Positions 2,637 through 11,045 of a stretch of DNA of 12,022 bases are shown piece after piece. The notes under the pieces were generated by a model. That model did not search any database and was not told the origin of the DNA. It was given only the letters and a program-made list of their open reading frames with translations. The translations under genes were made by a program, and so were the position numbers. Positions within the stretch are counted from its first letter, which is position 1. Each line of letters opens with the position of its first letter. Origin of the DNA: Eubacteriales bacterium (GTDB taxonomy: Bacteria > Bacillota_A > Clostridia > Christensenellales > Aristaeellaceae); the NCBI GenBank assembly GCA_030528845.1, contig JAUMYC010000060.1, positions 1 to 12,022 of the forward strand, read 5' to 3'.

Positions 2637-3326
2637 TCAGCGCTTCTGCGCCGCCTCCTGCGCGGGCTGTAAAAGGGTGAACTCGTTTTTGCTGCAGCGC
2701 AGCACGCCCTCTCTGCTCAGTTTGCCGATCTCCGCGGAGAGGCCGCTGCGGTCCACTTCGAGATAATCCGCCAGAGCCTGGCGGTCGAAGGGAATGGAAA
2801 AGGAAGCGCTGCCCGCGCGCTTGGCCTCTTCGAGCAGATAGGCCATCAGCTTTCCACGCGTGGTCCTGTGCGCGTTGATGGAGGCGCGGCGGTGCAGGGC
2901 GAGGTTTTTCTGCGCGACGATGCGCAGCATGTTGAAGATGAGGCGGCTGTGAAAGGCGCAGGCGTTCGTGCAGGAGGTGAGCAGCCGCTGACAGTTGATG
3001 AGCAGGATACGGCTGTCCTCCGTGGCGAGGGCGCTCACGGGAACGGTGGGCACGCCCGCACAGGCGAAGGTCTCGCCGAAGAGCTCACCCGGAGCGATCT
3101 GCATCATGACGCTGCGGCTGCCGTAATAATCCGTACGCAGGATCTGCACGCCGCCGCCGAGCAGAATGCCCACGTCCTGCGCGGCGTCGCCCTCGCTCCA
3201 GATCGCCTCGTTTTTGCGCACAAAAACCTCCCGCGCGCCGAGACAGGCCGTCATGGCGCGCAGGTCGTTCGGCTCGATGCCCTCGAAGAGCGGGCAGAGG
3301 AAAAGGATCTTATCGAATTTTTGCAT
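2637..3326 (-). CDS. Crp/Fnr-family transcription regulator, HcpR-like by context
   Basis: A 229-residue cytoplasmic regulator. Residues about 8-125 form the cyclic-nucleotide-binding-like beta barrel (WSEGD at 43-47, then APGELFGETFA at 78-88). A long dimer helix follows, and a C-terminal HTH lies near 178-212 (DRQALADYLEVDRSGLSAEI). Cys11, Cys28, Cys89, Cys112, Cys119, Cys123 and Cys211 are present, but there is no Fnr-type N-terminal Cys cluster. The ATG at 3326 is preferred because GGAGGAG lies 3 nt upstream; an in-frame ATG at 3356 lies inside the palindromic operator and has no such site. The gene diverges from a ferredoxin-like gene of the type linked to HcpR, the nitrosative-stress regulator of hcp and frdX. 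That link rests on context and on family knowledge. The effector could be NO/heme, a redox signal or another ligand. Confidence 0.82.
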   Translation of the reverse strand: MQKFDKILFLCPLFEGIEPNDLRAMTACLGAREVFVRKNEAIWSEGDAAQDVGILLGGGVQILRTDYYGSRSVMMQIAPGELFGETFACAGVPTVPVSALATEDSRILLINCQRLLTSCTNACAFHSRLIFNMLRIVAQKNLALHRRASINAHRTTRGKLMAYLLEEAKRAGSASFSIPFDRQALADYLEVDRSGLSAEIGKLSREGVLRCSKNEFTLLQPAQEAAQKR

Positions 3327-3329
3327 AAA

Positions 3330-3336
3330 CTCCTCC
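3330..3336 (-). promoter_or_regulatory. ribosome binding site of the Crp/Fnr-family regulator
   Basis: GGAGGAG on the minus strand lies directly before TTTATG at 3326. It fixes the start ten codons downstream of the longest open frame. Confidence 0.8.
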
Positions 3337-3340
3337 GCGT

Positions 3341-3354
3341 GTTGAAAATTCAAC
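3341..3354. promoter_or_regulatory. palindromic operator between divergent regulator and ferredoxin genes
   Basis: GTTGAA-AA-TTCAAC has perfect 6-bp arms. Its centre (3347.5) is about 42 bp upstream of the predicted plus-strand start (near 3390), the class II activator position of Crp/Fnr proteins. It is also about 17 bp downstream of the predicted minus-strand start (near 3364), where binding would repress the regulator gene. The TTGA half-sites resemble Fnr-like boxes, but the gap between TTGA and TCAA is 4 nt, not the 6 nt of E. coli FNR. The adjacent regulator is the obvious candidate ligand. Confidence 0.7.
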
Positions 3355-3370
3355 ATACTTACAGCGCTTG

Positions 3371-3399
3371 ATTGTACTATAATAACGCCGTCAGGTCAA
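3371..3399 (-). promoter_or_regulatory. sigma-A-type promoter of the Crp/Fnr-family regulator
   Basis: On the minus strand, -35 TTGACC (3394-3399) and -10 TACAAT (3371-3376) have the ideal 17-bp spacer. Transcription should start near 3364, placing the palindrome inside the initially transcribed region. Confidence 0.78.
3378..3383 (+). promoter_or_regulatory. -10 element of the ferredoxin operon promoter, probably activator-dependent
   Basis: A perfect TATAAT has no recognisable -35 hexamer 16-18 bp upstream (ATACTT at the 17-bp position). The palindrome at 3341-3354 occupies the region where a class II activator would replace -35 contacts. This -10 overlaps the spacer of the divergent promoter, so the two promoters probably compete for polymerase. 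Confidence 0.65.
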
Positions 3400-3420
3400 C
3401 AACGAAAGGGGAACAACACC

Positions 3421-4116
3421 GTGATCAGAAGGATCATTCGAATCGATGAAGAAAAATGCAACGGATGCGGCGCGTGTGCGTCCGCGTGCCATGAGGGCGC
3501 GATCGGCATGGAGAACGGCAAGGCGAAGCTGCTGCGCGAGGATTATTGCGACGGGCTGGGCGATTGCCTGCCGGCCTGCCCGACCGGCGCGATCAGCTTT
3601 GAGGAGCGCGAGGCGCCCGCCTATGCCGAAGTGGCCGTACCCGGGGCGCAGCTGGCGCCGGCGACGCCCTGGGGGGGTTGCCCGGGCCTGCCCGCACACA
3701 GCATCCGGCGCGCGCCGGAGCCGCCGCAGGCAGAGCCGACGCGCCTGCAGAGCCAACTGCGCCAGTGGCCGGTGCAGATCAAGCTCGCGCCGGTCAAGGC
3801 CCCGTATTTTCAGGATGCAAACCTGCTCATCGCGGCGGACTGCACCGCCTACGCCTATGCGAATTTTCATTCCGATTTCATGCGCGGCCGGGTCACGCTC
3901 ATCGGCTGCCCCAAGCTCGACGACGTGGATTACTCCGAGAAGCTGACGGCGATCCTGGCCAATAACGAGATCAAAAGCCTCGCGATCTTGCGCATGGAAG
4001 TGCCCTGCTGCGGCGGCATCGAATACGCCGCGAAGAAGGCCCTGCAGCAGAGCGGCAAATTCATCCCGTGGCAGGTCGTCACGATCTCCACCGACGGAAG
4101 GATATTGGAGCAATGA
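3421..4116 (+). CDS. ferredoxin-like 4Fe-4S protein (FrdX-like), two domains
   Basis: A 231-residue cytosolic protein. The N-terminal ferredoxin domain has C13-x2-C16-x2-C19-x3-C23 and then C43-x5-C49-x3-C53. The second motif has Leu46 where a bacterial two-cluster ferredoxin has its middle Cys, so the second cluster may be 3Fe-4S or absent. A Pro/Ala-rich linker (about 62-115) joins a C-terminal domain of about 110 residues with Cys141, Cys163 and the pair Cys196-Cys197 in EVPCCGG, which may hold or exchange a further cluster. Translation starts at GTG 3421, 9 nt after AAAGGGG. From memory, proteins of this shape accompany hcp in anaerobes, where they are thought to feed electrons in nitrosative stress; that role is inferred here. 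The next gene overlaps its stop (ATGA). The promoter looks dependent on the adjacent Crp/Fnr protein. Confidence 0.85.
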   Translation: MIRRIIRIDEEKCNGCGACASACHEGAIGMENGKAKLLREDYCDGLGDCLPACPTGAISFEEREAPAYAEVAVPGAQLAPATPWGGCPGLPAHSIRRAPEPPQAEPTRLQSQLRQWPVQIKLAPVKAPYFQDANLLIAADCTAYAYANFHSDFMRGRVTLIGCPKLDDVDYSEKLTAILANNEIKSLAILRMEVPCCGGIEYAAKKALQQSGKFIPWQVVTISTDGRILEQ

Positions 4117-4559
4117 GCGCGCAAGAGATGCTGCTGGGCTGCCTCGTGGGGCTGGCAAACGCTGCCACGGGCAATGCATGGAAGGCCGAGGAGCAGACCC
4201 ATGCGCTCGTTCGGGAGAGCCTGCGCCTGCTTGCGCGCAGGGCGGGGGAGGAGGAGCTGCGCCGGCAGGCGGACGCCGTGCGTGGGGAAAAGGCGCGGCT
4301 TGCGCCGGACTGCGCGGCGTGCAAAAATCCGTGCGGGCGCAATGCGGACTGGGACGCCGCGCAGATGCAGGACGAAAGTGACGGCCAGAACGCCGTCAAA
4401 GGGCTGATCGTCGCCGCGCTGTGCGCCGCGCAGCCGGAGGAAGGCGATACGGAGCTTCTCTATCGCGCGCTGCGCGCTCTCGGGGATGAATGGACGGCGG
4501 AGCGTCTTTTGCCCCTCGCGCTGCAGACGGGCGAGCTTGCTTTGCGGGCACTGCGATGA
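4113..4559 (+). CDS. small conserved-looking protein with CxxCxxxC motif
   Basis: A 148-residue protein whose ATG overlaps the TGA of the ferredoxin gene (ATGA at 4113-4116), implying translational coupling and a shared task. GGAAGGA (4096-4102) lies 10 nt upstream. An in-frame ATG at 4068 would extend it into the preceding gene and is not preferred. The protein looks almost entirely helical. Its one striking element is CAACKNPCGRNADWD near the middle, a C-x2-C-x3-C motif that could bind a metal or Fe-S cluster. I do not recognise the family with certainty. The motif and the location next to an FrdX-like gene suggest a redox or nitrosative-stress accessory protein. It is the last gene of its operon; the terminator begins a few bases later. 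Confidence 0.75.
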   Translation: MSAQEMLLGCLVGLANAATGNAWKAEEQTHALVRESLRLLARRAGEEELRRQADAVRGEKARLAPDCAACKNPCGRNADWDAAQMQDESDGQNAVKGLIVAALCAAQPEEGDTELLYRALRALGDEWTAERLLPLALQTGELALRALR

Positions 4560-4623: not shown

Positions 4624-5061
4624 TCAGAGGAGGATGCCCGCGAAGCACTGTGCCGCAAAGCACAGGCACGCCGCGCTCACCAGCGGAGCGAGCTTGCCCA
4701 CAGGGCCGGAGGAGATGCGCTGCGTCATGGAGGTGAACAGCCATGTGCAGGCGGTGAAGATGATGCAGCCGCTCAGCGCGAGCTTCCAGACCTCGCCCGC
4801 CGCCGCATAGCCGGACGCGAGCGGGAGCAGCGCGAACGTCAGCGCCGAAAACACGGGGATGCAGACGTAGCAGCGCTTGGAATTGGGGGAGATGTAATGC
4901 TCCAGCACCAGCACGACCATCGAGAGCAGTACGAGGTTCGGGATGTTCGCCTGCGGCAGGATGGCATAGGGCAGCAGGGCGTGCACGATGGCCATCGCCA
5001 GAAGCCCCAGCGCCGTGATGATGATCAGCAGCGTGTTGAGAAGATAGGTCTTGTTTTTCAT
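4624..5061 (-). CDS. unrecognised five-helix, Cys-rich membrane protein in the Rnf-like operon
   Basis: A 145-residue integral membrane protein with five likely helices: about 8-31, 41-57, 66-84, 92-110 and 124-145. It has seven cysteines: C64-x2-C67 at the start of helix 3, Cys99 and Cys105 in helix 4, and Cys132, Cys134 and Cys139 in helix 5. His27 and His55 are the only histidines. It is shorter than RnfA or RnfE (about 190-230 residues, six helices) and I cannot align it to them with confidence. It is the last gene of the operon, 4 bp after rnfG, with GGGGAGG 8 nt before ATG. Its position, where RnfE/RnfA genes often follow rnfG, and the membrane cysteines suggest an electron-carrying or assembly role in the complex. 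That is inference. Confidence 0.8.
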   Translation of the reverse strand: MKNKTYLLNTLLIIITALGLLAMAIVHALLPYAILPQANIPNLVLLSMVVLVLEHYISPNSKRCYVCIPVFSALTFALLPLASGYAAAGEVWKLALSGCIIFTACTWLFTSMTQRISSGPVGKLAPLVSAACLCFAAQCFAGILL

Positions 5062-5065
5062 ACGC

Positions 5066-5602
5066 TCAGCCTCCCCATGTCGTCGCGCTCGAGAAAGTAT
5101 CCGCGCCGGTGACGACCGCGACGGCGGAATTCACGCTGCGGGCGATCGCCTTGGAGGTGACCGTCGCGCCGGAGATGGCGTCGACGGTTTCGCCGACGGC
5201 GGCTTCGCCGGAGGTGTTCAGGAACTGCGCGAGGAATTCGTGATCAAACAGGGCGTGCATGCCCAGGCCGAAGGTCTCTTCCATTTCGCGCACGACGAGC
5301 CCGGTGACGGTGCCTTCGTTGCTCACGCCCACGAGCATGCGGATCGGCCCGGCATAGCCCGCGGTCTCCGTTTCGACCACATAGCCGTTTTCCGCCTTGT
5401 AGAGGGCTTGGATGTTGGCGTCCTCGCCGGTATAAGGCTCAGAAGTGAACTCTTCGCTGCCGTGCAGCAGAGTCTGCAGAGTTTTCGTCAGCTGCTCCTG
5501 TTCGTTTTGCGCCTGCAGGCCGGCAAGGCCCCATGCGGCGCCGGAAAGGACGGCGGCGGCCACAAAGAGCGCAAGGAGCGGGATGAGGATCGATCTGTTC
5601 AT
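5066..5602 (-). CDS. rnfG: Rnf-type electron transport subunit G, covalent FMN
   Basis: A 178-residue protein, near the usual length, with one N-terminal anchor helix (about 4-27) and an extracytoplasmic FMN_bind domain. The flavinylation motif SGATVTS (144-150) puts FMN on Thr147 through a phosphoester bond, as known for RnfG/NqrC. YAGPIRMLVGV (83-93) followed by the GLGMHAL turn (112-118) is typical of the family. In Rnf complexes this subunit passes electrons between the membrane FMN of RnfD and other carriers on the outer face. Its ATG shares one base with the stop of rnfD (TGATG), so the two are translated together. The FMN would be supplied by the ApbE encoded upstream in the same operon. 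Confidence 0.9.
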   Translation of the reverse strand: MNRSILIPLLALFVAAAVLSGAAWGLAGLQAQNEQEQLTKTLQTLLHGSEEFTSEPYTGEDANIQALYKAENGYVVETETAGYAGPIRMLVGVSNEGTVTGLVVREMEETFGLGMHALFDHEFLAQFLNTSGEAAVGETVDAISGATVTSKAIARSVNSAVAVVTGADTFSSATTWGG

Positions 5603-6540
5603 CAGGCGCGGCCTCCCTTCTTAGTACCAAAGCGACGCGGCGCAGTGCAGCGGTCGATCGCCCAGACCAGCGCGTTCATGATCAAAATCGCATAGGTGAC
5701 GCCTTCGGGATAGAGCCCGAAATAGCGCAGCAGCACGGTCAGCGCGCCGCAGCCCACGCCGTAGAGCAGCTGGCCGTTGGGCGTGACCGGGGAAGTGGCG
5801 TAGTCGGTGGCCATGAAGATGGCTCCGAGCATCACGCCGCCGCTGAGCAGGCTGTAGAGCATCCACATCAGCGGAGCGTCCGTCTTATGGAAGACGAGCG
5901 TCAGCAGCGCGACCGTGCCCAGATAGGCCAGCGGGATGCGCATGGAGATGACCTTGCGCCAGACGAGATAGGCTCCGCCCAGCAGCAGCGCCAGCGCGGA
6001 GATCTCGCCGATGCAGCCCGGGCAATTGCCCAGCAGCATCGCAGCGAGGCTCTCCTCCGGCAGCGCGGGCATGACCATGTGATGCAGGGGAGTGGCGCTC
6101 GAAACGCCGTCCACGCCGAAGAAGCGGGTGAGATAGGCCGGCCATGCCAGCATCAGCAGCGCGCGCGCGGAGAGCGCGGGGTTGAAGATGTTCTGGCCCA
6201 AACCGCCGCACAGGCCCTTGACCACGACGACGGCAAAGGCGCTGCCGATCGCAGCGACCCAGAGCGGCACGGTGGAGGGCAAAGTCATCGCAAGAAGCAG
6301 GCCGGTGACGACGGCGGAGCCGTCCAGCACGGACTTGGGACGGCCAAAGAGCAGGCCGAAGAGGAACTCCGCAGCCACGGCCGCGGCGATGGAGACCAAA
6401 ACGACCAGCGCGGCCGACGCGCCGAAGCGCCAGAGCCCCACGCACAGCGCGGGCAGCAGCGCGATCACCACGTCGATCATGATGCGGCTCGTGTTGGAAT
6501 GATTGCGGATAAACGGCGAAAATGCATGCGTCAGCTTCAT
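5602..6540 (-). CDS. rnfD: Rnf-type electron transport subunit D, membrane, covalent FMN
   Basis: A 312-residue integral membrane protein of the NqrB/RnfD family with about eight to ten helices. Family signatures visible are SPFIRNHSNTSRIM (8-21), GLGQNIFNPALSARALL (113-129) and the C-terminal YPEGVTYAILIMNALV (277-292). The motif DGVSSATPL (144-152) is the covalent FMN site, with Thr150 as acceptor. In Rnf and Nqr complexes this subunit carries electrons across the membrane and is the likely ion-translocating part. The start is the ATG at 6540, which overlaps the rnfC stop (ATGA, 6537-6540); a longer open frame upstream reads through rnfC in the wrong frame. Confidence 0.93.
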   Translation of the reverse strand: MKLTHAFSPFIRNHSNTSRIMIDVVIALLPALCVGLWRFGASAALVVLVSIAAAVAAEFLFGLLFGRPKSVLDGSAVVTGLLLAMTLPSTVPLWVAAIGSAFAVVVVKGLCGGLGQNIFNPALSARALLMLAWPAYLTRFFGVDGVSSATPLHHMVMPALPEESLAAMLLGNCPGCIGEISALALLLGGAYLVWRKVISMRIPLAYLGTVALLTLVFHKTDAPLMWMLYSLLSGGVMLGAIFMATDYATSPVTPNGQLLYGVGCGALTVLLRYFGLYPEGVTYAILIMNALVWAIDRCTAPRRFGTKKGGRA

Positions 6541-7847
6541 TTCTTCTTCGCCTCCGAAAGTAATCTTTTGCCCCTGCGGAAGGTGGTCACGAGAGGCAGC
6601 TTGCCGGGGCAGGAGAAATCGCAGCAGCCGCACTCGATGCAGTCCATGAGGTTGAGCCGTTCGAGCTGCCGCGTGTCCTGCGCGTTCGCGTAGCGGTACA
6701 TGTACAGCGGCTGCAGGCGCATCGGGCAAACGTCGAGGCATTTGCCGCAGCGCAGGCAGACCGGGTCTTCCGCCGGGCCGTTCTCGTCCTTAAAGAGGCA
6801 GAGCACGGAGTTGGTGGCCTTGACGACCGGCGCGCTCAGATCCTGCTGGGCGATGCCCATCATCGGGCCGCCGCTGATCACGCGCTCGGCGCCCTTGAGC
6901 AGGCCGCCCGCCGCCTTGATCAGATCGCTCAGCGGCGTGCCGATGCGCACGCGGAAATTCTGCGGCTTTTTCACGGCTTCGCCGGAGACGGTCACGATCC
7001 TCTGCGTGAGCGGAACGCCATGGCGCACGGCGCGGTAGATGGACGCGCAGGAGGCCACGTTGAACACGCAGCAGCCGATGCTCGCGGGCAGCTGGCCCGG
7101 GGGCACCTCGCGCCCGGTCAGCGCCTGGATCAGCTGCTTCTCCGAGCCCTGCGGATAGCGCGTAGGCAGCACGCTCAGCTCGATCTCCGGGTAGTCCTTC
7201 ATCAGCGCGCGCAGCGTTTCGATGGCAACGGTCTTGTTGTCTTCCACGGCAAGGCAAACGCGCTTGGGCTCGAGCAGCTTGCGCATGATCAGCAGGCCGT
7301 CGAGCACGAGCTTCGGCTCGGTGCGCAGCAGCGCATCGTCCGCCGTGATATACGGCTCGCATTCGCAGGCGTTGGCGATCAGCGTATCGACCTTGTCGAT
7401 GCCGGAGAAGGCCTTAACGTCGCTGGGGAAGGCCGCGCCGCCCATGCCGATGATACCGGCGGAGCGGACCGCGCCGAGGATCTCCCCGGCGGTGAGCACG
7501 TTCAGGGGCGTGTCCAGCCCCTGCATCGGGCAGGCTTCGTCCTTGAAGTCGTTTTCGATCACAACGGCTTCGACCATGCGGCCGTTGGTATGCAGATGCT
7601 GCCCGATATCGACCACCTTGCCGGAGACGGAGGCATGCACGGGCACGCAAAGGCCTTCGCCGTCGCCGATCTTCTGGCCGAGCAGCACGCGCTCGCCCTT
7701 TGCGACAAGGGGCTTGCAGGGCGCGCCGATATGCTGCTGCATCGGGATGACGACCCGCTTCGGGCTCACGACCGGGAGCTCGAGGCTCTGCAAAGAGAGT
7801 TCCTTATTGTATTTCGGATGGATCCCTCCGAAAAACAGGCGTTTCAT
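6537..7847 (-). CDS. rnfC: Rnf-type electron transport subunit C, NADH/FMN and two 4Fe-4S clusters
   Basis: A 436-residue peripheral cytoplasmic subunit of normal length. The N-terminal RnfC barrel-sandwich domain begins GGIHPKYNKELS. The Complex I 51-kDa-like NADH/FMN domain includes GMGGAAFPS (135-143) and ANACECEPY (158-166). A SLBB-like domain follows (about 280-345). The C-terminus has two full ferredoxin motifs: C364/C367/C370/C374 and C403/C406/C409/C413. Known Rnf function is electron exchange with NADH at the inner face of the membrane. GAGGTGA precedes the ATG, 13 bp after apbE. All cluster ligands are present, so the subunit looks functional. In classical complexes it works with RnfB (ferredoxin side) and RnfA/E, none of which is encoded here. 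Confidence 0.94.
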   Translation of the reverse strand: MKRLFFGGIHPKYNKELSLQSLELPVVSPKRVVIPMQQHIGAPCKPLVAKGERVLLGQKIGDGEGLCVPVHASVSGKVVDIGQHLHTNGRMVEAVVIENDFKDEACPMQGLDTPLNVLTAGEILGAVRSAGIIGMGGAAFPSDVKAFSGIDKVDTLIANACECEPYITADDALLRTEPKLVLDGLLIMRKLLEPKRVCLAVEDNKTVAIETLRALMKDYPEIELSVLPTRYPQGSEKQLIQALTGREVPPGQLPASIGCCVFNVASCASIYRAVRHGVPLTQRIVTVSGEAVKKPQNFRVRIGTPLSDLIKAAGGLLKGAERVISGGPMMGIAQQDLSAPVVKATNSVLCLFKDENGPAEDPVCLRCGKCLDVCPMRLQPLYMYRYANAQDTRQLERLNLMDCIECGCCDFSCPGKLPLVTTFRRGKRLLSEAKKK

Positions 7848-7860
7848 CGTTTCACCTCGT

Positions 7861-8895
7861 TTATGTTCGAATCAGTTCTGAAAAGCCGGGGCTGTAGAGC
7901 AGCTCGCCCTCCGGCGAGACCCACAGCGCCTGCGCGCCGTATTGCTCCAGCAGCGCCTGCCCTTCCTCCTGCGGCAGCAGAAACAGCGCCGTGGAGAGCA
8001 TATCGCCCAGAGCGGAATCCGCGCAGACGACGCTGACCGAGCGCCAGAGAGAGGCGGGATAGCACGTCTGCGGATCGATGATGTGGTGGTAGGGCACGCC
8101 GTCGACGAGGTAGGCGCGCTGGTAATCCCCGCTGGTGATCACGCTGCCCTCGCTCAGGTAGATCGTGTGCAGATACTTGTCCGCCGCGCCGTCCGGGTCC
8201 TGTATGCCGATGACCCAGGGCGTGCCGTTTTCGTCCTTGGGGCCCGTCGCGCAGACGTTTCCGCCCACGCTGATGAGCATGCCCTCCGGAGCGCCTTCAC
8301 ATACCCTCTGCACGGCCCAGCCCTTGGCGATCGCGCCGACGTCCAGCGAGGCGGCCGGGTCGCTGAGAAAGACCGTGCCGGCCTCGGGGTCGATCTCGAC
8401 CGCATCAAAGGAGACATGCGCCTGCGCCTCGCGCAGCGCCTGTTCGTCCGGGAGATACGCGTTGGCCGGGTCGGCCGCGCCTGCGTCCCTTGCATCGTGC
8501 CAGAGGCGCAGCACGCTGCCCATGGCCGCGTTCACCATGCCGCCGGTAGCTTCGTAATAGGAGCGGCAGTCCTGCAGAAGGGCGATGATCTGCCCGTCCG
8601 CCCGCACGGGCGCGACGCCTGCGTTTTTGTTGATCGTACACAGGTTGTTCATGCCCTCGTATTCCTGATAGATATCGAAGAGCCGGTGATAGCGCAGCAG
8701 CTCGTCGTGGATGCTCTGCGCGCTTTTGCGAAATTCCTCCTCGCTTTCTGCGCGGCCGATGATCGTAGTCAGCGTGTCGAACAGATCGAGGAAGGTGGCG
8801 GTATACTGCGCTGTGCCGCCCTGCTCCGGGCGCTGCGAGGAGCACCCGGAGAGCAGGACGGACAGCAGGATGAGCAATGCTGCGGTGCGCTTCAT
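7861..8895 (-). CDS. apbE: ApbE-type FAD:protein FMN transferase, lipoprotein
   Basis: A 344-residue exported lipoprotein. The signal peptide ends at lipobox LLSGC, with Cys18 as the lipidated residue. The ApbE fold shows its usual signatures: SLDVGAIAKGWA, ISVGGNV, ITSGDYQRAY, YHHIIDPQTCYPA and the late ADSALGDMLSTALF that contributes to Mg/FAD binding. It transfers FMN from FAD onto Thr of S/T-x-A-T motifs. The targets are almost certainly RnfG (Thr147) and RnfD (Thr150) encoded just downstream, and possibly the lipoprotein upstream. The start at ATG 8895 gives a clean signal peptide; a longer open frame adds 60 residues from the wrong reading of the preceding gene. It lies 8 bp after the repeat lipoprotein gene and has only a weak AAGG site, so its expression may rely on coupling. 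Confidence 0.93.
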   Translation of the reverse strand: MKRTAALLILLSVLLSGCSSQRPEQGGTAQYTATFLDLFDTLTTIIGRAESEEEFRKSAQSIHDELLRYHRLFDIYQEYEGMNNLCTINKNAGVAPVRADGQIIALLQDCRSYYEATGGMVNAAMGSVLRLWHDARDAGAADPANAYLPDEQALREAQAHVSFDAVEIDPEAGTVFLSDPAASLDVGAIAKGWAVQRVCEGAPEGMLISVGGNVCATGPKDENGTPWVIGIQDPDGAADKYLHTIYLSEGSVITSGDYQRAYLVDGVPYHHIIDPQTCYPASLWRSVSVVCADSALGDMLSTALFLLPQEEGQALLEQYGAQALWVSPEGELLYSPGFSELIRT

Positions 8896-8903
8896 TGCCT
8901 TTT

Positions 8904-10034
8904 TTATTGCGCGGCCTTGGCGATGAGCGCCTGGAAGCCGCCGATGGCGATGGTCACGCTGGCGGAGAGATCCGCCTCGGCGGGAGCGGTCTTTTCGGTC
9001 ACGGCGATACCGGCCACGTCGGCGGCGGTCTTGCCGGTCACATAGGCGGCGAAGGAAGCGGCCTGCTCGTTCCATTCATACTTCGCGCCGGCATATTTCT
9101 TCATGCCGTAGTTCTCGCCCAGCGCGTTCTTGGTGAGCATGGGGGCGGTCAGGTCGGTGGTCAGAGCGCCGGCAGCGTCGAAGTTCACCTTCGCCTGCAG
9201 GGAATCGATGGCGCAGCTGGTGATCACGTCGCCGTTCATGGTCACGACGGCCACATCCACATCCAGCTGGGAGAGGCCGGCGGCTTCGGCGGTGGCGGAG
9301 GTGCTCGAGCCGGTGGAGCCGATGATCGCCAGCTTCAGCTCGTCGCCTTCCTGCGCGCCAAGGTCCTGTGCGTTGGCGACGGCGGCTTCGATGGCGGAGA
9401 CATAGCCGCCCAGAGCGATGGTCGCAGTGGCGGCGAGATCCACGTCGGCGGCCTTGCCGCTCTCGTTCACCGCGCCGGACTTGAGCTCTTCGACGGTCTT
9501 GCCCACGGCGTACTGCTCAAGGGCGTCGATCTGCTCGTTCCATTCGTACTTCGCACCGGCGTACTTCTTCATGCCGTAGTCCTCGCCCTGCTCGTCCTTG
9601 GTGCGCAGAGCGGCGGAGATGTCGGAAGTGATCTGGCCGGCGGCGTCGAAGGTGACGGTCGCGGGCAGGGAATCGACGATGCAGCTGCGGATGACGCCGT
9701 TTTCGTCGACGGTGACGGCGGCGACGGTCACGTCATACTTGGCCTGACCGGCAGCCTCGGCGGTGGCGGAGGCGCTCTCGGCGGCGGAGCCGGAGATGGC
9801 CAGGCCGGTCTTCAGAGCGCCGGTCTGCGCGTCGTCCGTATCCTGCACGGGGGACTCTTCGGAAGCGGCCTCGCCGGTAGCGCCGGTGTCGGCGTCGGTC
9901 TGCTCTTCCGTCGGGGCGGCGGTGGGCGCGGCGTAATAGTTGTTGGTCTGATAGACCACGGTGGTGCCGGTGCAGCTGCTGAGCAGGCCGAGCATCATGG
10001 TCAGCACGAGGATGGATGCGATCTTCTTGAGCAT
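8904..10034 (-). CDS. exported lipoprotein with two ~145-residue repeats, FMN-binding-like
   Basis: A 376-residue surface lipoprotein: signal peptide with lipobox LLSSC (lipidated Cys21), then an Ala/Thr/Glu/Asp-rich tether (about 22-72), then two related domains (about 74-220 and 233-376). Both carry the same block, YGMKKYAGAKYEWNEQ, at 153-168 and 309-324. Each has a strand pattern like VTVDENGVI that recalls FMN_bind domains. Each ends in a segment (DLAATATIALGG, DLSASVTIAIGG) placed like the flavinylation motif but without S/T-G-A-T. It may bind FMN loosely, hold it at a divergent Thr, or act in another way. By location and layout it resembles the two-domain lipoprotein PplA of flavin-based extracellular electron transfer in Listeria, though homology is not established. 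AGGAGG lies before the ATG, and the longer open frame upstream lacks a signal peptide. Confidence 0.78.
   Translation of the reverse strand: MLKKIASILVLTMMLGLLSSCTGTTVVYQTNNYYAAPTAAPTEEQTDADTGATGEAASEESPVQDTDDAQTGALKTGLAISGSAAESASATAEAAGQAKYDVTVAAVTVDENGVIRSCIVDSLPATVTFDAAGQITSDISAALRTKDEQGEDYGMKKYAGAKYEWNEQIDALEQYAVGKTVEELKSGAVNESGKAADVDLAATATIALGGYVSAIEAAVANAQDLGAQEGDELKLAIIGSTGSSTSATAEAAGLSQLDVDVAVVTMNGDVITSCAIDSLQAKVNFDAAGALTTDLTAPMLTKNALGENYGMKKYAGAKYEWNEQAASFAAYVTGKTAADVAGIAVTEKTAPAEADLSASVTIAIGGFQALIAKAAQ
9063..9588 (-). repeat. direct repeat inside the lipoprotein gene (58-bp copies at 9063-9120 and 9531-9588)
   Basis: Two 58-bp segments differ at five positions, are in the same orientation and lie 468 bp (156 codons) apart. 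They encode the most conserved block of the two protein repeats. The similarity at DNA level suggests a fairly recent duplication or gene conversion, or strong purifying selection on this block. Confidence 0.85.
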
Positions 10035-10069
10035 GGTTGTTCCTCCTGAACGTATGAACTTTATATGCC

Positions 10070-10087
10070 CGTCCGTTTGTGCGGACG
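10070..10087 (-). other. intergenic hairpin before the lipoprotein gene
   Basis: A perfect 6-bp stem (CGTCCG/CGGACG) with a 6-nt loop lies in the 76-bp gap between the Gx transporter and the lipoprotein gene, the largest gap in the operon. There is no T-run after it on the minus strand. It could protect or process the downstream mRNA, which would let the lipoprotein be made in larger amounts. Confidence 0.4.
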
Positions 10088-10110
10088 CGGACAACGAAAA
10101 AAGGGGGAGC

Positions 10111-10617
10111 CTACAGCGCGCGCCGATGCGGCAATGCCCGCAGCACTCCCGCGCCGGCAGCGCCCGTGGCCGTGCCGGTGGCCAGCGCTGTGCACAGCAG
10201 CCAGGGAAGGTACGCGCCGATGTAGACCGAGCGCATCATGCACATCGCCACGGCGATCTGGCCCACGCCGTGCGCGGCCGCGCCGAGGATGCTCACGCCG
10301 TAGATGGAAAGAAACGGCGCTTTTTTTGCAGCGCCCATGCACAGCACGGACAATACGCCGCCCGTGAGCGAAAACATCAGCGCCGTCACGCCGCCGCCAA
10401 AGAGCGAGCCGAGCAGGCAGCGCAGCACGAGGATGACCATGGCGCTGGAGAAATCAAGCGTATACAGCGCGATCAGCGTCACGATGTTGGCAAGGCCCAG
10501 CTTGATGCCCGGCAGGGGCACGATCATCTGCAGCGGGATAAAGCGCTCGATATAGGACAGGGCGAGCGCGGCGGAGATCATCACGGCGCACAGGGCGATC
10601 CTTCTGCTTTGTCTCAT
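10111..10617 (-). CDS. Gx transporter family membrane protein
   Basis: A 168-residue membrane protein with five to six helices of the family often annotated as heptaprenyl diphosphate synthase component I or Gx transporter. The signature PLPGIKLGLANIVTLIALY lies near residues 34-52, followed by a Gly-rich loop GSLFGGGVTALMF. The fold resembles ECF-transporter substrate subunits. The true substrate is not established. Its constant partners in Firmicutes are NusG domain II proteins, ApbE and FMN-binding proteins, as here, which points to flavin or quinone supply or to assembly of the redox system. GAGGTGA overlaps the upstream stop, 4 bp before this ATG. The C-terminus is short and basic. Confidence 0.85.
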   Translation of the reverse strand: MRQSRRIALCAVMISAALALSYIERFIPLQMIVPLPGIKLGLANIVTLIALYTLDFSSAMVILVLRCLLGSLFGGGVTALMFSLTGGVLSVLCMGAAKKAPFLSIYGVSILGAAAHGVGQIAVAMCMMRSVYIGAYLPWLLCTALATGTATGAAGAGVLRALPHRRAL

Positions 10618-10621
10618 CCGC

Positions 10622-11008
10622 TCACCTCACCACAAAGTCGACGTCGCCGGTCACGCCAGTGACGCGCAGCTCGACCCGGTTGGGCAGACAGGCGATGCTC
10701 CGGCCCGGCTGGGAGATCGCGCCGCTGTGCATGCAGTCGCCGCCGGGGCAATCCGAAAAAACGACGCTCGCACGGCCGTCTTCGATGCGGATCGTGTTGC
10801 GGTATTCGCCTTCGATCTCAAAGGTGATCTCCTGCGAAAGGGGCAGCTCGCGCAGCAGAGCGCCGTCCTGAAAGACCTGCAAAACGGCTTCTCCTTCGGA
10901 CGAGGAGCGCGGCAAATAGGCCGCCGCCGTTCCCAGCGCCAGCAGCACGACCAACGCGACCGCGAGCCAGTCGCCCCTGCCAAAGCGCAGGCGCATTTCC
11001 CTTTGCAT
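10622..11008 (-). CDS. NusG domain II-containing membrane-anchored protein
   Basis: A 128-residue protein with one N-terminal membrane helix (about 14-32) and an extracytoplasmic beta domain of the NusG domain II type. The family's Cys motif is seen as SDCPGGDCMHSGAI with Cys87 and Cys92, then Cys107 in SIACLPNRVEL. Despite the name it is not a transcription factor: it lacks the NusG N-terminal and KOW domains and is anchored outside. The start at 11008 is chosen because GGAAGGG (11017-11023) lies 8 nt upstream; an in-frame ATG at 11029 would coincide with the predicted transcript start. It is the first gene of the redox operon and is followed after 4 bp by the Gx transporter gene. The conserved cysteines suggest a thiol or metal site; the biochemical role is unknown. 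Confidence 0.85.
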   Translation of the reverse strand: MQREMRLRFGRGDWLAVALVVLLALGTAAAYLPRSSSEGEAVLQVFQDGALLRELPLSQEITFEIEGEYRNTIRIEDGRASVVFSDCPGGDCMHSGAISQPGRSIACLPNRVELRVTGVTGDVDFVVR

Positions 11009-11036: not shown

Positions 11037-11045
11037 ATTGTACCA
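11037..11045 (-). promoter_or_regulatory. probable extended -10 promoter of the redox operon
   Basis: On the minus strand TGG-TACAAT (TG at the extended -10 position, hexamer at 11037-11042) would start transcription near 11030, about 22 nt before the ATG. The -35 region (TTATAA 17 bp upstream) is poor, which suits an extended -10 or activator-dependent promoter. The upstream DNA (about 11060-11095) is A/T-rich and may act as an UP-like element or regulator site. Confidence 0.5.

Follow-up and report, generated by a model that had tools for sequence, protein, structure and literature searches.

The window analysed here is contig JAUMYC010000060.1 of an Eubacteriales bacterium of the Aristaeellaceae (assembly GCA_030528845.1), a stretch of DNA of 12,022 nucleotides. 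On its minus strand lies an intact operon of eight genes (11008-4624), which retains exactly the RnfG-RnfD-RnfC half of the Rnf complex (RnfABCDGE), the half joining NAD(H) to an extracytosolic flavin. On balance it is probable that the operon encodes a one-way half-Rnf conduit from NADH to flavin proteins at the cell surface; the direction of flow, the partners, the flavinylation, the role of the 145-residue protein P145 and any ion coupling are parts of this reading that we infer. The genes, in operon order from the NusG domain II protein (first) to P145 (last), and the stems that bound them are as follows:

10622..11008, minus strand: NusG domain II protein, EetA-like (PF07009, 79.7 bits)
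10111..10617, minus strand: PF07456 'Gx transporter', an EetB-like ECF-S subunit and predicted exporter of flavin adenine dinucleotide (FAD) (136 bits)
8904..10034, minus strand: lipoprotein with two repeats, PplA-like, 376 aa (lipobox LSSC; start refined to 10034)
7861..8895, minus strand: ApbE flavin transferase, by eye a lipoprotein (PF02424, 211 bits; start refined to 8895)
6537..7847, minus strand: RnfC (TIGR01945, 506 bits, cut-off 246; aligned to 7zc6_C)
5602..6540, minus strand: RnfD, 312 aa (TIGR01946, 295 bits for the longer open reading frame, cut-off 207; 7zc6_D, 290 bits)
5066..5602, minus strand: RnfG-like protein, FMN_bind domain with SGAT (PF04205, 62.7 bits, above its own cut-off; 7zc6_G, 56.6 bits)
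4624..5061, minus strand: P145, five-helix membrane protein of 145 residues (AlphaFold model; RnfA profile match)
4607-4572, minus strand: terminator-like stem closing the operon after P145 (15 pairs and a T run)
11177-11145, minus strand: terminator-like stem that follows the phosphofructokinase gene upstream of the operon (13 pairs and a T run)

The ATG at 11008 was chosen as the start of the first gene over 11029 because of a promoter-like site ending at 11037; EetA itself is presumably a member of the same Pfam family, PF07009. The start of rnfD was refined to 6540, which gives a 4-base overlap with the stop of rnfC. The RnfG-specific profile TIGR01947 was not matched by the window RnfG (61.6 bits, cut-off 102). 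A preliminary description of this DNA, made from the sequence alone, had the operon closed by terminators on both sides, and the two stems agree with it: 28 terminator-like sites were found in the window (mean of 9.5 in shuffles), the two bounding the operon have the longest stems, and the gene preceding the outer one is a phosphofructokinase (PFK, 263 bits). That RnfC, RnfD, RnfG and ApbE are present with intact cluster and flavin sites was likewise borne out, by family profiles and, for RnfC, RnfD and RnfG, by motifs in all 16 operons compared below.

No match to PF02508 (RnfA/E) was found among the ten window proteins scanned. The RnfB profile was not matched in the window, where a Fer4 protein outside the operon (3421-4116) scored 33.2 bits against a cut-off of 68.7. 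No membrane Ndh2 domain (K03885) was found in any of the eight operon proteins, and RnfD in the window carries PF03116 only, with no fused PF00175 NAD domain. The earlier claim that RnfA, RnfE and RnfB are all missing thus stands in that none is recognisable in the window; since P145 probably represents RnfA in a reduced form, the absence of RnfA is only partly true.

Relatives were collected by means of P145. A profile of 26 P145 homologues led to ten genome loci. Six of the 295 genomes sampled from the order of G003 carry P145 (G003 included, hence five new), as do two of 200 in the family sample (G007, already known, and G451, new and outside the examined set) and G003 alone among 391 genomes of the class, where the best ten candidates were scored per genome. 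All counts for relatives cover 15 of the 16 P145 genomes found, that is, all but G451. Comparison of the gene neighbourhoods of P145 homologues, which had been proposed in the preliminary description, gave the block lipoprotein-ApbE-RnfC-RnfD-RnfG-P145 in identical order in 15 of 15 relatives. EetA- and EetB-like genes lie directly upstream (within ~0.6 kb) in the window and in 6/15 loci. ApbE is present at each of the 15 half-Rnf loci; none of the 12 canonical loci, compared as stretches of 7.5-9.5 kb, has it.

The cofactor sites of the three Rnf subunits are conserved throughout. RnfC keeps eight cluster cysteines (two [4Fe-4S] motifs) and the loop for flavin mononucleotide (FMN) in the window and in 15/15 relatives, and no internal stop occurs in the rnfC frame of any relative. 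The threonine of the RnfD ATPL motif, which we take to be the FMN-carrying residue, is kept in the window (SSATPLHH) and in 15/15 relatives. This motif reads ATPLHH or ATPLHQ in 16/16 operons and in none of 13 other RnfD proteins (12 canonical, one degenerate); ATPLH[HQ] is a signature of this RnfD class. The histidine of the signature might serve as a metal ligand or adjust the properties of the flavin. The [ST]GAT motif of RnfG was found in the window and all 15 relatives; in seven of these the extracted RnfG match ends at most 11 residues past the motif, and the comparison there covers the sequence up to the match end. In trees of RnfC and RnfD, the 16 operons form one clade each (support 100 and 99), apart from 12 canonical copies, some of them on very long branches; the canonical rnfC of a thirteenth genome (G009) is cut by the contig end and was left out. 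Judged from these sequences, the RnfCDG set is a conserved, separate lineage.

P145 occupies the slot after rnfG, where rnfE and rnfA would be expected, in 15 of 15 loci, and its model has five helices (AlphaFold pLDDT 86, pTM 0.80). At E 0.001 it has no match among the families of Pfam and NCBIfam, and none of the 26 members matches an Rnf family. A first small profile comparison gave local hhalign probabilities of 23% for RnfA, 33% for RnfA+E and 0.1% for RnfE, and 0.1-1.2% in global mode. With larger profile sets, redundancy-filtered at 90%, local hhalign of 135 P145 against 46 RnfA sequences gave 61% (P 7.9e-5, score 34.4), the last two helices being aligned and the alignment reaching both C-termini; values for the larger P145 set were 50% with RnfA+E and 0.7% with RnfE alone. 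P145 residues 53-145 aligned to residues 90-194 of RnfA (transmembrane helices TM3-TM6) at 67% when 43 canonical RnfA were used, and a divergent set of 19 rows gave 57%; the upstream part of P145 aligned more weakly with the RnfA+E profile. Scores across the sets ranged from 33.7 to 35.6. None of 600 column shuffles reached 34.4, the highest score being 33.9 for a shuffle by blocks of 10 columns; reversed profiles scored 22.5 and 22.8, and the other membrane sets EetB, RnfD and ABC (8, 68 and 4 sequences) scored 15-19.

We consider it fairly likely that P145 is a reduced relative of RnfA that has lost the [2Fe-2S] ligands. If so, the first helix of RnfA and both cluster cysteines are gone: P145 resembles the RnfA/NqrE family (PF02508) in the aligned region and in its operon slot, but it is about 50 residues shorter, and the part with the first cluster cysteine has no counterpart in it. 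Structure searches did not confirm the link, which counts against this identity. P145 could instead be unrelated to RnfA, a separate membrane family that joined the half-Rnf set, for example as an assembly factor; the RnfA alignments, which extend to both C-termini, and the far lower control scores speak against this, and we give it lesser, still appreciable weight. The window copy has a CxxC motif (C64, C67), and the preliminary description had called the protein Cys-rich. This did not hold up as a family trait: the motif is present in 8/15 loci and gone in 7/15. Any role of the motif in Fe-S binding is therefore no family trait either, and no cysteine is conserved across the family.

Degenerate RnfE/A pairs were found in two other genomes of the phylum sample (loci L077 and L078), with all four proteins still matching PF02508. 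The tandem RnfE/RnfA-like genes of L077 (8046-9186) keep none of four ligand cysteines. An RnfC-D-G-E-A run is present at L078 (4818-9693), whose RnfA has lost the first ligand cysteine and kept the second (the count covers RnfA and leaves out its RnfE partner). No RnfB match was found on the L078 contig; the RnfB of that genome neighbours the canonical pair on a different contig. The run adjoins the gene of an exported protein that carries five CxxCH heme motifs (Cytochrome_C7, 38.5 bits). The cysteine losses suggest that the RnfA/E cluster was lost more than once. At L077, by eye, an apparent FMN_bind C-terminus with SGAT lies at the contig end, before the RnfE/RnfA-like genes.

The repeats of the lipoprotein are collinear with FMN_bind, and at the position of the acceptor threonine T205 is nearly invariant and T361 invariant in the window and 14 loci. 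The AlphaFold model (pLDDT 83, pTM 0.77) has as its best structural row 3o6u, which is annotated as FMN_bind. The SGAT motif is missing from the repeats. The collinearity, the threonines and the structural row point, weakly, to what are probably two divergent FMN-binding domains. In G278, a genome with the half-Rnf set only, the lipoprotein match (L041, 11324-11875) spans about one repeat, and a one-domain version may exist. According to PMC9973259, homologues of EetB belong to PF07456, Listeria requires EetB to export FAD, and deletion of eetA had no phenotype there. Co-localisation of eetB with Rnf in 572 Clostridia genomes is also reported, so the gene neighbourhood as such is already known (PMC9973259).

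According to PMC12174285, electrons in Rnf pass from ferredoxin through RnfB, the [2Fe-2S] cluster of RnfA/E, the FMN of RnfG, the FMN and riboflavin of RnfD and RnfC to NAD+. One half of this semicircular path has been argued to be unidirectional, with reference to Nqr/Rnf-like systems, in two papers (PMC8238504, PMC10979944). In the conduit proposed here, NADH would reduce the FMN of RnfC, and electrons would pass over its two [4Fe-4S] clusters to the riboflavin and FMN of RnfD and to the covalent FMN of RnfG. RnfG would then reduce the flavin-carrying, two-domain surface lipoprotein and, through it, a further acceptor. The EetB-like protein would export FAD, and ApbE would attach FMN to both RnfG and RnfD, perhaps to the lipoprotein as well. 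P145, in the RnfE/RnfA slot, may hold RnfD and RnfG together in place of the RnfA-RnfE pair; the entry of ferredoxin electrons via RnfB and the RnfA/E cluster would be missing. Support for this conduit comes from the RnfC-D-G connection to the outer flavin, from the accessory genes, which fit flavin-based extracellular electron transfer (EET), and from the separate lineage.

The operon resembles that of the Rnf complex in its homologous RnfC, RnfD and RnfG with cofactor motifs and in the order C-D-G followed by a membrane protein, as compared with C-D-G-E-A-B in Fusibacter. It differs in having no RnfB, no canonical RnfA/E and no [2Fe-2S] ligands, and in the lipoprotein and ApbE within the operon, together with the EetA/B-like genes in the window. 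With the Nqr/Rnf-like systems (Meheust 2021; PMC8238504, PMC10979944) it shares a single transmembrane path from NAD(P)H to extracytosolic FMN that was proposed to be unidirectional. In those systems an NqrF-type NAD domain is part of the same protein as RnfD, whose flavinylation site is not conserved (PMC10979944), whereas the window operon has a separate RnfC, keeps the flavin threonine of RnfD and adds P145. The idea of a one-way half of Rnf/Nqr is already published (PMC8238504, PMC10979944), with an architecture unlike the one described here. The Gram-positive flavin-based EET system (ndh2-pplA-fmnB-eetAB) has in common with the window the EetA/EetB-like pair, ApbE and a two-repeat surface lipoprotein; here, however, RnfCDG would replace Ndh2 as the membrane NADH dehydrogenase, and the lipoprotein repeats are without SGAT.

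The gene content of most relatives weighs against the conduit. PF02508 is matched twice (E 0.001), in another operon, in 13 of 15 relatives, and RnfB (E 1e-20) is present in the same 13 genomes, always beside the PF02508 pair. In G001 and G278 neither was detected at these thresholds; absence of RnfA/E and RnfB from these two genomes, whose assemblies are of unreported completeness, is suggestive only. The preliminary description had inferred an alternative NADH-to-exterior conduit and named a complete rnf operon elsewhere as evidence to the contrary. Such gene sets were largely found, and the inference survives as the best reading, on the strength of the RnfCDG half, the accessory genes, the lineage and the two genomes showing no A, E or B.

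Because RnfA/E and RnfB are encoded elsewhere in most relatives, sharing of these subunits is conceivable, and the module might borrow them from a complete Rnf to form a hybrid complex that differs on its NAD side or its acceptor side. We consider this unlikely in view of the two genomes in which the set occurs with no detected PF02508 or RnfB, the separate RnfC/RnfD clade and the presence of P145 in the post-rnfG slot of every locus. Likewise unlikely is an inward conduit, in which outside electrons (from reduced flavins, minerals or partner cells) would reduce NAD+ through RnfG, RnfD and RnfC. This is the forward direction of classical Rnf (PMC12174285); against it, we would argue that disposal of NADH electrons is the usual need of fermentative Clostridia and that the accessory genes fit outward systems. 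A decayed duplicate of an rnf operon, which the lack of three of the subunits encoded by rnfCDGEAB might suggest and which the preliminary description had raised, is hardly credible given one clade with kept cofactor motifs, conserved gene order and stop-free RnfC frames.

Beyond the outward conduit itself, one may tentatively regard RnfC-RnfD-RnfG-P145 as the third kind of architecture within the Rnf/Nqr superfamily, a possibility we hold to be doubtful. RnfA would have been cut to a scaffold of five helices that has no cluster and perhaps forms a homodimer, and a ferredoxin:NAD+ pump turned into an NADH:surface-flavoprotein reductase, maybe still coupled to Na+ or H+ through RnfD; the degenerate pairs of L077 and L078 would be parallel or earlier stages. 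If the conduit is real, animal-gut Clostridia have divided a redox ion pump at the outer flavin and put the part to use for NADH disposal to the surface. The RnfC-RnfD-RnfG half would then be isolated in nature, making the disputed ion-pumping site (RnfA/E or RnfD) directly testable. One published classification of 'RNF' clusters (PMC8238504) demands RnfB, so half-Rnf operons would go uncounted there. No description of an RnfB-less RnfCDG-P145 or RnfCDG-only operon was found among the matches listed in the open-licence PMC literature.

RnfC (E 1e-80) was found in 252/295 genomes of the order, with the best five candidates scored per genome. The six P145 genomes of that sample have three RnfC matches (one genome), two (four genomes) and one (G278). 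Long RnfC fusion frames (L093-L096) represent a further class of RnfC, the third in these genomes, and at L096 a methylenetetrahydrofolate reductase gene follows. In the window, the region convergent with the operon (2637-4559) encodes a Crp-type regulator on the minus strand (PF00027 and PF13545) beside the 4Fe-4S protein. A small protein with several cysteines and of no known family is encoded there with the 4Fe-4S protein on the plus strand.

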